Source: Thermohalobaculum xanthum (GTDB lineage: Bacteria; Pseudomonadota; Alphaproteobacteria; Rhodobacterales; Rhodobacteraceae). From it: a DNA stretch of 64,000 nucleotides. The notes beneath the pieces are model-generated. The model was not told the DNA's origin. It searched no databases and saw only the letters and a list, made by a program, of their open reading frames with translations. Location of the stretch: positions 1 to 64,000 of the forward strand of contig NZ_JAEHHL010000005.1 of the NCBI RefSeq assembly GCF_016623495.1, given 5' to 3'. The translations under genes were made by a program, and so were the position numbers. Below, in pieces: positions 59,864 through 63,978 of the stretch; the first letter of the stretch is position 1; every line of letters starts with the position of its first letter.

Positions 59864-60373
59864 ATGACGTCACTTTCCCTGCCGGGTCTGCGCGGCCTCG
59901 GCCTCGTTCTCGCCGCCTGCGCGGCGCTCGCGCTTTCGGGCTGCGAGACGCCGGGCAAGATCGCCGAGACCTCGACCTTTGACATCAGCCAGGCTTCGCC
60001 CGACGACATCGGCAAGGCGCTGCGCCGCGACGGCAAGGTCGCGATGACCGGCGTGCTGTTCGAGACCGACAGCGCCCGCCTGAGCGCCGAGGGCAAGGAT
60101 CTGACCGCGCGCCTCGCCAACGTGCTGATCAATGACCCCGAGCTGAAGGTGGCGGTGGTCGGCCACACCGACAACACGGGCGCCTTCACTTACAACCTCG
60201 ACCTGTCGCGCCGCCGCGCCGAGGCGATGGTCAACGAGTTGATCCGCGTCCACGGGATCGCGCAGGACCGCCTCGCCCCTGTCGGCGTGGGGCCGCTGGC
60301 GCCGGTCGCGTCGAACGAGACGCCCGATGGCCGTGCCCAGAACCGCCGGGTCGAGGCGGTGCTGATCCAGTAG
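59864..60373 (+). CDS. OmpA-family lipoprotein
   Basis: A 169-residue protein. The lipobox LSGC places the lipidated Cys at residue 27 after a signal peptide. The mature N-terminal part is short; the OmpA_C peptidoglycan-binding domain spans about residues 75-165 with FETDSARLSAEGKD, VVGHTDNTGAFTYNLDLSRR and GRAQNRRVEAVL. ATG 59864 has a GAGGG ribosome binding site. It resembles Pal but stands outside the Tol cluster and is a second envelope-to-cell-wall anchor. A terminator follows. Confidence 0.93.
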   Translation: MTSLSLPGLRGLGLVLAACAALALSGCETPGKIAETSTFDISQASPDDIGKALRRDGKVAMTGVLFETDSARLSAEGKDLTARLANVLINDPELKVAVVGHTDNTGAFTYNLDLSRRRAEAMVNELIRVHGIAQDRLAPVGVGPLAPVASNETPDGRAQNRRVEAVLIQ

Positions 60374-60433: not shown

Positions 60434-61414
60434 TCAGCCCGCGGCGATCAGTTCGGCCTGCTTGACGATCACCTCGGCCTGGCGGATCGAGGCCAGGTCG
60501 ATCAGCTTGCCGTCGAGCGTGACCGCCCCCGAGCCCGCCTTCTTGGCGGCCTCCATCGCCTCGAGCACGCGCTGGGCCTGGGCGATGGCGGCGTCCGAGG
60601 GGGTGAAGACCTCGTTCGCCAGCGCGACCTGGCTGGGATGGATTGCCCATTTGCCGACCATCCCCAGCGTGGCCGAGCGGCGCGCCTGGGCGCGGAAGCC
60701 CTCGGGGTCCGAGAAGTCGCCGAAGGGGCCGTCCACCGGCAGCACGCCATGAGTTCGGCAAGCGGCGACCATGGCGACCGAGACATGGTGCCAGGGGTCG
60801 GGATAGTGGACCGCCCGCGGCCCGCCATCCTCGCGCGCGTCCTCGATCATGTAATAGCCGGGCTGGGTGCCGCCGATCGCGGTGGTCTGCATGCCCATCG
60901 AGGCGGCGTAGTCGGCCGGTCCGAAGCTCATCGCCTGCAGCCGCGGCGTCGCGGCCGCGATCTCCTCGATATGCGCAAGCCCTGCCGCGGTCTCGATGAT
61001 CACCTCGAAGCCCAGCTTCTTCTTGCGTCCCTTCGCGGCCTCGACCGCCGCCACCAGCGCCTCGACGGCGTAGAGGTCGCGGGCGTTGCCGACCTTGGGG
61101 ATCATGATCAGGTCGAGCCGCTCGCCCGCCTGCTCGAGCAGATCGACGATGTCGCGATACCAGTAGGGCGTGTCGAGGCCGTTGATCCGCACCGAGAGCG
61201 TCTTGCGGCCCCAGTCGATCTCGTCGATCGCGCGGATGATGTTGGCGCGCGCCGATTCCTTGTCCGAAGGCGCGACCGCGTCCTCGAGGTCGAGATTGAC
61301 CACGTCGGCCGCGGACGCCGCCATCTTCGGGAAGATCGCCGGGCGCGAGCCGGGCCCGAACAGCTGGCAGCGGTTGGGGCGGGCGACGGGCGCGGGCTGG
61401 ACGGTGAAGCTCAT
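60434..61414 (-). CDS. mcl1: L-malyl-CoA/beta-methylmalyl-CoA lyase
   Basis: A 326-residue HpcH/HpaI-citrate lyase family enzyme, strongly similar along its length to the Rhodobacter sphaeroides Mcl1 sequence as I recall it (RPNRCQLFGPGSRPAIF, AASAADVVNLDLEDAVAP, RINGLDTPYWYRD, GMVGKWAIHPSQVALANEVF in blocks). The metal-binding Glu/Asp of FEVIIETAAG and LEDAV are present. The enzyme cleaves beta-methylmalyl-CoA to glyoxylate and propionyl-CoA and L-malyl-CoA to glyoxylate and acetyl-CoA in the ethylmalonyl-CoA pathway. It is divergent from the DUF4410-like gene, with an inverted repeat in the gap. Confidence 0.94.
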   Translation of the reverse strand: MSFTVQPAPVARPNRCQLFGPGSRPAIFPKMAASAADVVNLDLEDAVAPSDKESARANIIRAIDEIDWGRKTLSVRINGLDTPYWYRDIVDLLEQAGERLDLIMIPKVGNARDLYAVEALVAAVEAAKGRKKKLGFEVIIETAAGLAHIEEIAAATPRLQAMSFGPADYAASMGMQTTAIGGTQPGYYMIEDAREDGGPRAVHYPDPWHHVSVAMVAACRTHGVLPVDGPFGDFSDPEGFRAQARRSATLGMVGKWAIHPSQVALANEVFTPSDAAIAQAQRVLEAMEAAKKAGSGAVTLDGKLIDLASIRQAEVIVKQAELIAAG

Positions 61415-61450
61415 CGGGCGACTCCTCTGGTGCGGCGCTGATTCCGCAGT

Positions 61451-61468
61451 GCAACATAATATTATTGC
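61451..61468 (-). promoter_or_regulatory. GCAA...TTGC inverted repeat in the mcl1 promoter region
   Basis: An imperfect palindrome GCAACATAATATTATTGC lies 37-54 bases upstream of the mcl1 start, in an AT-rich island of an otherwise GC-rich gap. The half-sites GCAA and TTGC are the same short words seen in operators of ScfR-type regulators of short-chain acyl-CoA genes. Identity of a binding protein is a guess. Confidence 0.35.
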
Positions 61469-61643
61469 GCGGGTTTATCCCCGACAGGCGAATGCGTCAA
61501 TTCACGGCGTCGCCCAGCGACGCATCCGTTCGGGTGCGTCTCCGGCGCCCCGCGCCGAAAGTGCCGGATGTTGATCCTGCTCAAGGTCGCGCCGCGGCAT
61601 CATTGTTACATTTTGACGACACGCAGGAGGGATGCCCGGGACG

Positions 61644-62180
61644 ATGACCGACACCGCGCAACGACCGACCCTGACGACTGGCATGGCCGTGCTGGCGGTG
61701 ATCGGCCTTCTCGCGGTTGCGGGCTGCGAGACCCGGTCGGCCAGCACCACGGTCGCGCCGCTGGGCGGAGAGGTCGAGCGCGTGGTGATCCTCGAGCCTT
61801 GCGAGGACCGCACGGGGCTTCAGATCAGCCGCGATCTCGCGGGCGAGGCCACGGCGGCGATGGCAAAGGCGATCCGTGAAAGCGAGGTCTTCCGCACCGG
61901 CACCGGGGCGCCGCTGCGCGTGAGCTGCGATGTCGAGGGGTTCATCGAGGGCAGCGCCGTCAAGCGTTGGGTCATGCCCGGCTGGGGCGCGACCAAGGGA
62001 ACGCTGCGCGCGGCCGTCTGGCGCACCGGCGACGGCGGGGACGCGATGCTGGGCGTCTTCGAGAGCCGCGGCCAGGTCTCCAGCGGCGGGCTCTATACCC
62101 TCGGGGCCGACGACTACATCCTCGATGTCGCGGCGCGCGACATCGTCCGGCAGATGGAGGCCTGGGCCCGCGGCGTCTGA
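61644..62180 (+). CDS. DUF4410-like lipoprotein
   Basis: A 178-residue predicted lipoprotein: signal peptide, lipobox VAGC with lipidated Cys at about residue 28, then a mature domain that resembles DUF4410 (KRWVMPGWGATKGTL, SSGGLYTLGADDYILDVAA). The family is small and of unknown function. ATG 61644 is preferred over ATG 61632 because the AGGAGG ribosome binding site lies only one base before the latter, though its distance to 61644 (about 13 bases) is also long. First of four small exported proteins. Confidence 0.72.
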   Translation: MTDTAQRPTLTTGMAVLAVIGLLAVAGCETRSASTTVAPLGGEVERVVILEPCEDRTGLQISRDLAGEATAAMAKAIRESEVFRTGTGAPLRVSCDVEGFIEGSAVKRWVMPGWGATKGTLRAAVWRTGDGGDAMLGVFESRGQVSSGGLYTLGADDYILDVAARDIVRQMEAWARGV

Positions 62181-62225
62181 GTTGGCGCCCGCGTCCCGTC
62201 CCAGGCGAAGCAGAGGAGGCGCGCG

Positions 62226-62615
62226 ATGACCGCACCGACCCGAACCAGGATGGCGCGCGCGGGGCTGGCGGGCCTTGCCGCCGCGGTGCTCGGCACCGCG
62301 CCGACGCCATCGGCCGCCGACGAGTTCCCCGAGGTCGGCCGCATCGAGACCTCGCTGTCGCGCGGCGTGTCGACCCAACGCGAGGTGCAGGCCCTGCTGG
62401 GCGTGCCCGACGGGATCGGCAACTCGGTCTTCCCGCCCGACTACCGCCGCCACGACGTCTGGTTCTACGAGGATATCGAGCTGCTGGGCATGACCACCGA
62501 GGGCGAGATCACCAAGGTGGGCGTCCGACAGCAGATCCTTCTCGTGTTCTTCCACGATGGTCGCTTCGACGGCTTCGCTTGGAGTTCGAGCACGCTGCCG
62601 GGAGATGTGAAATGA
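62226..62615 (+). CDS. BamE/SmpA-like exported protein, copy 1
   Basis: A 129-residue exported protein. Its signal peptide ends near TPSAADE and carries no lipobox cysteine, so it is probably soluble. The mature part follows the pattern of BamE/SmpA-like domains: SRGVSTQREVQALLGVPDGIG, then FPPDYRRHDVWFYED and FFHDGRFDGFAWSSS. Two paralogs follow with the same blocks. Its stop overlaps the ATG of the next gene. Confidence 0.72.
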   Translation: MTAPTRTRMARAGLAGLAAAVLGTAPTPSAADEFPEVGRIETSLSRGVSTQREVQALLGVPDGIGNSVFPPDYRRHDVWFYEDIELLGMTTEGEITKVGVRQQILLVFFHDGRFDGFAWSSSTLPGDVK

Positions 62616-62977
62616 GCCCGATCGTGCGCGCGTTGCGCCCCGCCCGCGCCATTGCGCTGGTCCTTTCCCTCGGTCTGGCGGGTTGCGCGACCGATATCCG
62701 TTTCGGCAACGACTTTGACGAGACGGCTGTCACCGGTTTCGAGGTCGGCAAGACCACGCGAGCCGACGTGATCCGCGTGCTGGGCATGCCCCGCGGGCGC
62801 GGCGAGACCTATGTGCCGCGCTACGCCGCGCGGCGCGACATGATGTTCTACGAACTGGTGACCACCGATACCCAGGCGGTGGATCTGAAATTCCTGCTCA
62901 TCCTGCTCGATGGCGACCGGTACGACGGGCATTTCTGGTTCGCGAGCAGCCAGCTGGTGGACGAGGGAGGCGTGTAA
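62612..62977 (+). CDS. BamE/SmpA-like lipoprotein, copy 2
   Basis: A 121-residue lipoprotein with lipobox LAGC. The mature domain repeats the motif set of its neighbours: VGKTTRADVIRVLGMPRGRG, then VPRYAARRDMMFYE and LLDGDRYDGHFWFASS. It overlaps the previous gene by 4 bases, and the next gene starts at its TAA stop (TAATG). The order of the conserved blocks is identical to copies 1 and 3. Confidence 0.75.
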   Translation: MSPIVRALRPARAIALVLSLGLAGCATDIRFGNDFDETAVTGFEVGKTTRADVIRVLGMPRGRGETYVPRYAARRDMMFYELVTTDTQAVDLKFLLILLDGDRYDGHFWFASSQLVDEGGV

Positions 62978-63369
62978 TGGCGGACCGGGTCAAGAATGCC
63001 AAGACGCGGAACCGGCTGCACGCGATGCGTGGGCCCGCGATCGTGCGGGGCTGCCTTGCGGGGGCGGCGGCACTGCTTCTGGCTGGGTGCGAGTTCAACA
63101 TGGAGGTCGGGCGCGAGGTCGATCTCGCGGCGCTGGACGGACGGCTGGTCGCCGGCACCTCGACACGGGCCGATGTCCTCGCGGCGCTGGGCGAGCCCTT
63201 CGGCGAGGGGCGCGCGATGTTCCCGTTCCACGAGACGCCGCGCGACGTGCTTGCCTATTACTACGAGCGCGGCGATCTCGAGGACAACCGGCGGACCTTC
63301 CTGTGGGTGTTCGTCGACGACGGGCGCTATGGCGGGCACATGTGGTTCTCGAGCCTGCCGGAGGTCTGA
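62977..63369 (+). CDS. BamE/SmpA-like lipoprotein, copy 3
   Basis: A 130-residue lipoprotein with lipobox LAGC after a signal peptide with a longer basic N-region. Blocks in order are AGTSTRADVLAALGEPFGEG, FHETPRDVLAYYYE and FVDDGRYGGHMWFSSLPEV. It closes the tandem set; def follows 69 bases later. BamE helps fold outer-membrane proteins, but whether these do so is not known. Confidence 0.75.
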   Translation: MADRVKNAKTRNRLHAMRGPAIVRGCLAGAAALLLAGCEFNMEVGREVDLAALDGRLVAGTSTRADVLAALGEPFGEGRAMFPFHETPRDVLAYYYERGDLEDNRRTFLWVFVDDGRYGGHMWFSSLPEV

Positions 63370-63438
63370 GCGCGGCCCGCGGGACCGGGCGGCTGTCTCC
63401 AGCTTGACCGGCTTGGGGGCATCGCTTACGTCGTCACC

Positions 63439-63978
63439 ATGCTGCGACCCATCCTCATCCATCCCGATCCGCGCCTGAAGAAGGTCTGCGAGGCCGTCTC
63501 GGACATCGGCCCGGCCGAAGCACAGCTGGTCGAGGACATGTTCGCCACCATGTATGACGCGCCGGGCATCGGGCTCGCCGCGCCGCAGGTGGGGGTGAAC
63601 GCCCGCGTGATCGTGATGGACTGCGCGCGCCGCGAGGACGAGCCGCCGGCGCCGCAGGCGCTGATCAACCCGGAGGTGGTCTGGAGCTCGGAGGAGACCT
63701 CGGACTACGAGGAGGGCTGCCTCTCGATCCCCGAGATCTACGCCATGGTGACCCGGCCGGCCGAGGTGCGCGTGCGCTTCCTCGACCCCCAGGGGGCCGA
63801 GCGCGAGGAGAGCTATTCCGGCATCTGGGCGACCTGCGTGCAGCACGAGATCGACCATCTGAACGGCAAGCTGTTCATCGATTACCTGGGCCCGATGCGG
63901 CGCCGGATGATCACCGACAAGATGAAGAAGCTCAAGCGCGAGCGGGCCAAGGCCGGCGCCGAGCGCGTCGAGGGCTGA
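63439..63978 (+). CDS. def: peptide deformylase
   Basis: A 179-residue metalloenzyme that removes the N-formyl group from new proteins. Motif 1 GIGLAAPQVG includes Gln50, motif 2 EEGCLSIPE includes the metal ligand Cys94, and motif 3 QHEIDHLNG gives His136, Glu137 and His140. All metal ligands and the catalytic Glu are present. ATG 63439. The next ATG, 63985, is the probable start of fmt, the usual partner. Confidence 0.96.
   Translation: MLRPILIHPDPRLKKVCEAVSDIGPAEAQLVEDMFATMYDAPGIGLAAPQVGVNARVIVMDCARREDEPPAPQALINPEVVWSSEETSDYEEGCLSIPEIYAMVTRPAEVRVRFLDPQGAEREESYSGIWATCVQHEIDHLNGKLFIDYLGPMRRRMITDKMKKLKRERAKAGAERVEG

Follow-up and report, generated by a model that had tools for sequence, protein, structure and literature searches.

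BamE (SmpA/OmlA; PF04355) is generally treated as a single small accessory protein of the barrel-assembly machine (BAM). TpgA, the partner of the adhesin AtaA, is presumably one protein with a peptidoglycan-associated part, with which its PDB name agrees, and we take its N-terminal domain to be BamE-like. In excerpts from two reports, E. coli BamE is described as binding BamA and BamD and as able to dimerise (PMC13067283), and the TpgA N-terminal domain as a periplasmic domain that serves one specific barrel outside BAM and strengthens the membrane anchoring of AtaA in simulations (PMC13082670). An excerpt from a third report states that the BamE model also picks up OsmE and that P. aeruginosa has two OsmE forms beside BamE, and that excerpt reports no ordered triplet for OsmE (PMC3359395).

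The locus described here is from Thermohalobaculum xanthum (Rhodobacteraceae, Alphaproteobacteria; genome of 4.05 Mb), positions 1-64,000 of contig NZ_JAEHHL010000005.1; this whole stretch of 64,000 nucleotides is called the window. A gene for a predicted lipoprotein (P0001) is followed by three genes for small exported-looking proteins (P0002, P0003 and P0004, or copies 1 to 3; Table 1). The three are like BamE in the fold predicted for P0003, in being small, exported-looking proteins and often predicted lipoproteins, in the start of the domain (G-x-[ST]-x-x-x-V-x-x-x-LG-x-P), and in an aromatic strand with a conserved Y. Unlike BamE, they score below the family cut-off, they occur as three copies per operon in a genome that has a separate BamE, and they end in a last strand, [YF]-x-G-x-x-W, that is present in all nine triplet proteins from three genomes, while the C-terminal block of 13 aligned alphaproteobacterial BamE proteins is missing. 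The TpgA domain would offer a likeness in role; its structure (9vnj) matches the P0003 fold weakly (Z 4.5), and TpgA did not match the BamE profile significantly (E 0.13). However, there are three separate small proteins at this locus, and no adhesin gene was noticed in the open reading frame lists beside the loci. OsmE (4dm5, Z 6.0) and BLIP-like proteins (BLIP at about Z 4-6.5) share the same broad fold but score below the leading BamE entries. The fold predicted, from a weak model, for the first protein of a related locus in MO_074.B3 resembles CsgG/HpaA/PelC/TolB-N-type proteins, but that protein has no sequence match to solved chains, and P0001, which is DUF4410-like, showed no sequence similarity to it.

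Table 1. Features of the four-gene locus and of its flanks, in window coordinates
Feature	Position	Strand	Description
HpcH/HpaI aldolase (citE-like)	60434..61414	-	flank; conserved boundary of the variable site
P0001	61644..62180	+	lipoprotein of 178 aa (AVAGC lipobox seen by eye), DUF4410-like
GAGGAGG, ribosome-binding-type site of P0002	62213..62219	+	6 nt before ATG; sequence reading
P0002 (copy 1)	62226..62615	+	129 aa; by eye, a signal peptide that lacks the lipobox cysteine; BamE-type domain assigned by alignment
ATGA, overlap of P0003 start and P0002 stop	62612..62615	+	4 nt
P0003 (copy 2)	62612..62977	+	lipoprotein of 121 aa (GLAGC seen by eye); BamE fold in the model
GAGGGAGG, ribosome-binding-type site of P0004	62963..62970	+	sequence reading
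P0004 (copy 3)	62977..63369	+	lipoprotein of 130 aa (LLAGC seen by eye); BamE-type domain assigned by alignment
Peptide deformylase	63439..63978	+	flank; other boundary of the variable site

The first-pass annotation of this DNA had placed four open reading frames at 61644-63369, and their positions were right; all four products look exported, signal peptides and lipoboxes being judged by eye throughout. Translation of P0001 could also start from an in-frame ATG at 61632. Overlapping start and stop codons, claimed for the whole set, were found at P0002/P0003 and at P0003/P0004 (1 nt, TAATG), but P0001 and P0002 do not overlap and are separated by a 45 nt spacing. The reading of copies 2 and 3 as lipoproteins, and of copy 1 as a protein without a lipobox cysteine, agrees with an inspection by eye in which LAGC was seen in both P0003 and P0004 and no cysteine at all in P0002. 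GC3 of the four genes (0.84-0.90) is that of coding DNA here, slightly below that of three flanking genes (0.91-0.94), and the GC content of the module (0.696) is close to that of the window (0.685). No promoter-like site was found for the module; one terminator-like site lies upstream at 61586, against 0.8 expected.

The proposal that the three small proteins are paralogs was borne out when P0003 was searched against its own genome at E <= 0.001: apart from itself, it retrieved P0004 (E 6.3e-15, 37% identity), P0002 (E 9.1e-6, 33%), and nothing else. Identity among the window copies is low, at 29-37%. The motifs ascribed to them held in outline. LGxPxGxG and a late W occur in all three, but GxTTR is exact in P0003 only, the other two copies having GVSTQ and GTSTR at this position, and the DGR block reads GDR in P0003.

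The fold evidence comes from P0003, copies 1 and 3 being assigned by alignment. A template-free AlphaFold2 model of the mature protein, built from the alignment of the nine triplet proteins, had a pLDDT of 89.6 and a pTM of 0.78. When the top 1000 chains from Foldseek were realigned with VIA, which is limited to that list, the top match was E. coli BamE (7nri_E; Z 9.5, rmsd 2.5, 82 residues), and rows 1-18 were all chain E of BAM-complex entries (Z 7.3-9.5). The next matches were a BLIP-like protein (Z 6.9), the T6SS immunity protein BtiO (6.8), and BLIP (6.5 downwards), and other BamE entries stood lower (Bartonella 6.4, N. gonorrhoeae 5wam 5.6, E. coli NMR models 4.7 and 4.5). Foldseek by itself returned no match at E <= 0.001, and no BamE stood among the best 50 matches listed. 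A best Z of 7 to 8 is common in VIA without kinship; a Z of 9.5 over nearly the whole domain and to a single family is good but not overwhelming support for a BamE fold in the modelled copy. Structure prediction had been suggested as a check on the BamE likeness, with an unlike structure counting against it, and the P0003 model resembles BamE.

Sequence comparison with BamE gave weaker results. Profile-profile alignment (hhalign) of the nine triplet proteins with the 13 alphaproteobacterial BamE proteins gave 96.5% (E 8e-10), a value that is partly circular, as are the profile scores of these proteins, because the 13 were chosen among the matches of the triplet's own searches, 12 of them from the profile search of the class described below; the P0003 model is independent of how they were chosen. 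An unrelated control alignment gave 0.2%, and E. coli BamE alone gave 1.9%, which is not significant. With the triplet profile, scores of 3.8 bits for E. coli BamE and 5.2 bits for the genome's own BamE fell within the range of 800 shuffles (maximum 5.8); a second BamE-type protein of the genome (L043), likewise chosen independently of those searches, scored 17.0 bits, above that range. The PF04355 cut-off of 23.2 bits was reached by none of the three window copies, for which there was also no Pfam BamE model match and no NCBIfam model above its cut-off, and the best of the six copies from other genomes reached 14.8 bits. A C-terminal T-P-x-x-G...Q-x-x-G-x-x-G block was found in 13 of the 13 aligned BamE proteins and in the genome's own BamE and is absent from all nine triplet proteins; E. 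coli BamE also lacks it, so the block defines only the alphaproteobacterial clade. Since the BamE proteins that had not been selected by these searches, from E. coli and from the genome itself, fail against shuffles and the P0003 model matches BamE, the triplet shares its fold with BamE and its sequence kinship is remote. The earlier label 'BamE-like' therefore stands for the fold, with one copy modelled, and for profile-profile similarity subject to the selection just described, but not for membership of the BamE family.

The triplet was considered as the genome's ordinary BamE and rejected, because a separate BamE is present (G000:C1:911414), with 44.9 bits against PF04355 and the usual C-terminal block of its clade.

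The triplet is rare. When 385 genomes of the class were searched with a profile of the three window copies, 57 had at least one match at E <= 0.001, and a set of three occurred only in the genome of the window and in two more (G220 and G043). The 27 single-match loci listed by this search (L009-L035) mostly looked like BamE: the C-terminal block was present in 21, replaced by a proline-rich tail in three, worn in one (L024), and unreadable because of a stop in two. Within the window's family, the triplet was found in 1 of 394 genomes at E <= 1e-6, and two other genomes had one weak match each. A phylum sample of 398 genomes yielded no new triplet and, besides the known ones, one genome with one weak match. 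A scan with the copy 3 alignment across one genome each of 84,980 species, which relies on short exact patterns that distant relatives can escape, recovered the same two genomes only, the metagenome-assembled genomes (MAGs) MO_074.B3 (JASJBI010000049.1; MO below) and KW1-S21_141 (JAPULJ010000810.1; KW below). An earlier genome scan with P0003 alone found nothing, and searches of genomes around the two MAGs (2, 1 and 2 genomes) showed no further triplet. The known triplet genomes thus number three, two of them MAGs from two other families of the class; these two are imperfect assemblies, 90 and 93% complete and with contamination of 5 and 7%. On conservation of the cluster, for which the first-pass annotation had proposed a survey of Rhodobacterales, the answer is divided: the ordered set recurs in two distant genomes, but its own family has it once. 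No such ordered BamE-type triplet was found among the papers listed from the open-licence literature, which were mostly judged by title.

In each MAG, an exported-looking protein is followed by three BamE-type proteins in the same order as in the window. With the starts chosen here, the junctions overlap by 4, 47 and 4 nt in KW, and in MO the first and the third overlap by 4 nt and the second is a gap of 4 nt; in other words, the junctions in all three genomes overlap or lie no more than 4 nt apart, P0001/P0002 of the window excepted. One of the three small proteins in each genome lacks the lipobox cysteine, as judged by eye: copy 1 in the window and in MO, and copy 2 in KW. A cysteine-free copy that varies by genome fits a complex with common anchoring. 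The identified neighbour genes differ between the two MAG loci and from those in the window, so the module itself is the common unit.

The order of the copies also appears to reflect their descent. Same-position copies were best partners in 16 of 18 comparisons, the exceptions being window copy 1, which matched KW copy 3, and window copy 2, which tied with copy 1 in MO, and for each of the three pairs of genomes the summed score was highest with the identity order (matrix added by hand). In a tree of the nine triplet proteins, with four of the 13 BamE proteins as the outgroup, the triplet proteins were split from BamE (support 99/98), and copy 3 of all three genomes formed a clade (99/99), P0004 being the copy whose counterparts are most clearly recognised. 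Copy 2 of KW and MO grouped together (93/94), as did their copy 1 (84/86). Support for copy 2 of all three genomes was 43/24, and copy 1 was not one group in the best tree, so the window copies 1 and 2 appear less clearly placed with their counterparts. An ordered triplet in two other families indicates that the duplication is old and that the copies came in, or persisted, together. The first-pass annotation had seen a locally expanded module; the ordered triplets in the MAGs, the copy 3 clade, and the low identity among the window copies speak against this, and for copy 3 it is contradicted. Judging from these alignments, the triplet is better described as an old ordered set than as a local expansion.

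The first gene is less uniform. P0001 had been called a DUF4410-like lipoprotein; the lipobox is there by eye, but the match to DUF4410 (PF14366; 21.1 bits, E 3.3e-4) lies below the cut-off of 26 bits. P0001 was not found in 100 relatives, and its matches to PDB sequences were at chance level (best E 0.14, mostly antibody and HLA chains). The first proteins of the two MAGs are homologous to each other (39%) and showed no sequence similarity to P0001 (hhalign 0.4%). A weak model of the MO first protein, made from two sequences with a mean pLDDT of 64, matched HpaA in Foldseek (1.2e-6), as well as CsgG, PelC, GNA1162, and LptE, and in VIA it matched FlgT, HpaA, and TolB at about Z 10. Folds of these types are common among outer-membrane lipoproteins and periplasmic partners. 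That P0001 has the same fold as the MAG first proteins is a guess from the order of strands and helices by eye. As the first gene is not recognisably one family across the loci, the unity of the four genes rests on position.

The module occupies a variable site. The interval between the aldolase and deformylase genes spans 61415-63438 in the window; in two congeners it measures 134 nt (G001) and 174 nt (G003), too small for such genes, and other genes fill it in G002 (a methyltransferase) and G004 (an SH3-domain protein). A search for P0003 in these four congeners gave no match. Because the triplet occurs in 1 of 394 family genomes and the site is empty in two congeners and otherwise filled in two, a transferred cassette in a variable spot is the simplest reading and a probable one, and multiple loss is possible. 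Repeats at the ends of the insert were just short, imperfect ones, none judged to frame the module, and no match to plasmids was found for P0004 or P0012. On the aldolase side of the locus, an OmpA-family gene (59864-60373; Pfam OmpA 65.6 bits) lies between the citE-like aldolase gene and a gene that we take to be accA-like. No tblastn counterpart of this OmpA-family gene turned up in the corresponding stretches from three congeners, of which two cover the distance from accA to citE.

A phage origin was considered and rejected. Full-length P0003 matched phrog_3135 in PHROGs (E 9.4e-8), a match that weakened to 0.0034 without the signal peptide; 5 of the 9 triplet proteins without signal peptide matched this family at E <= 1, and so did 13 of the 13 ordinary BamE proteins, which matched it better (best 2.9e-12). 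Two scans for viral contigs gave nothing, and tblastn of P0003 against phage records gave weak partial matches (best E 0.2). The family itself is listed as a phage family of unknown function, and from these matches it is probably a BamE-type lipoprotein family.

Computation shows that the small proteins are paralogs with overlapping frames, that copy 2 has a predicted BamE fold, and that the set is rare and keeps its order. From this we infer a location, a complex, a client, and a function, in a proposal that we regard as quite possible while short of probable. It is that the locus encodes a compact transferable envelope module, in which a lipoprotein and three non-identical BamE-fold proteins form a hetero-oligomer docking on an outer-membrane barrel. 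All four proteins would be exported across the inner membrane by Sec, those with the cysteine would be lipidated and sorted to the outer membrane, and the cysteine-free copy would be retained there by its partners. Coupling of the frames would lead to roughly equimolar products. The three BamE-fold domains, together with the lipoprotein, would associate into a hetero-oligomer bound to the periplasmic side of the barrel, which it would stabilise or help to assemble, alongside the BamE that the genome already has. A complex of this kind, with shared anchors, fits the coupled frames, the three distinct subunits, and the cysteine-free copy that shifts between genomes. A more specific form, in which an undescribed, horizontally moving outer-membrane complex that works beside BAM consists of one lipoprotein of the CsgG/TolB-N type and three BamE-fold subunits that must all differ, with the fold of an accessory subunit turned main building block, is doubtful, if conceivable. 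A set of three divergent BamE-fold proteins whose order persists in distant alphaproteobacteria, and which has apparently been transferred in one piece, would imply that the BamE fold also builds separate envelope complexes, beyond one BAM helper. The locus provides a small operon for asking what BamE-type domains recognise.

Other roles have to be weighed against docking on a separate client barrel. The three proteins could be accessory or alternative BamE subunits of BAM itself, binding BamA or BamD under some condition, as the best fold match of P0003 to BamE in BAM structures and the record of OsmE as a BamE relative beside the standard gene would allow. However, a BamE that carries the usual C-terminal block is already encoded in the genome; the triplet lacks this block and scores below the family cut-off; it is hard to fit three different copies per locus on one BamE site; and the triplet profile does not lift E. 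coli BamE or the genome's own BamE above shuffles, which leaves this role unlikely. Periplasmic inhibitors or immunity-type proteins, in which BamE/BLIP folds neutralise an enzyme or an incoming effector and the cassette is passed around, are decidedly improbable. The sporadic distribution and the variable site suit accessory cargo, and a BLIP-like protein, BtiO, and BLIP follow BamE among the fold matches of P0003, but they do so below its leading rows (6.9 vs 9.5). No PADLOC model matches any of six proteins (P0001-P0005 and P0009), and an unsystematic look at the open reading frame lists adjoining the three loci noticed no effector-like gene. Immunity proteins are expected to change fast, whereas the motifs common to the three copies are kept in three lineages. 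A client barrel is preferred over BAM, and BAM over an inhibitor or immunity role, because of the binding and dimerising of BamE and the precedent of TpgA and AtaA. As to origin, a recent expansion confined to this lineage, as first proposed, would suit the single occurrence among the family genomes, the 2 of 18 best-match tests that miss the same-position copy, and the loose placement of window copies 1 and 2; set against the ordered triplets in two other families, the firmly grouped copy 3, and the divergence of the window copies, it is very hard to credit.

Several further BamE-type proteins were noted. The genome of the window contains two candidates, one (L043, G000:C2:161096-161197) just at the PF04355 cut-off, with 23.5 bits together with its frame neighbours, and one (L071, G000:C22:53455-53787) found by phrog_3135 only (E 2e-5). 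In the same family as the window, one genome (G684) encodes a single lipoprotein with a BamE-type start motif (L047, 1498-1896), the one match in that genome. L009, L011, and L018, the three with a proline-rich tail instead of the C-terminal block, are BamE-type proteins that come from other families of the class. With E-values of 1.2e-7 and 8.3e-7, two of these proteins rank among the three best single matches to the triplet profile, so the three may be nearer kin of the triplet than BamE is.
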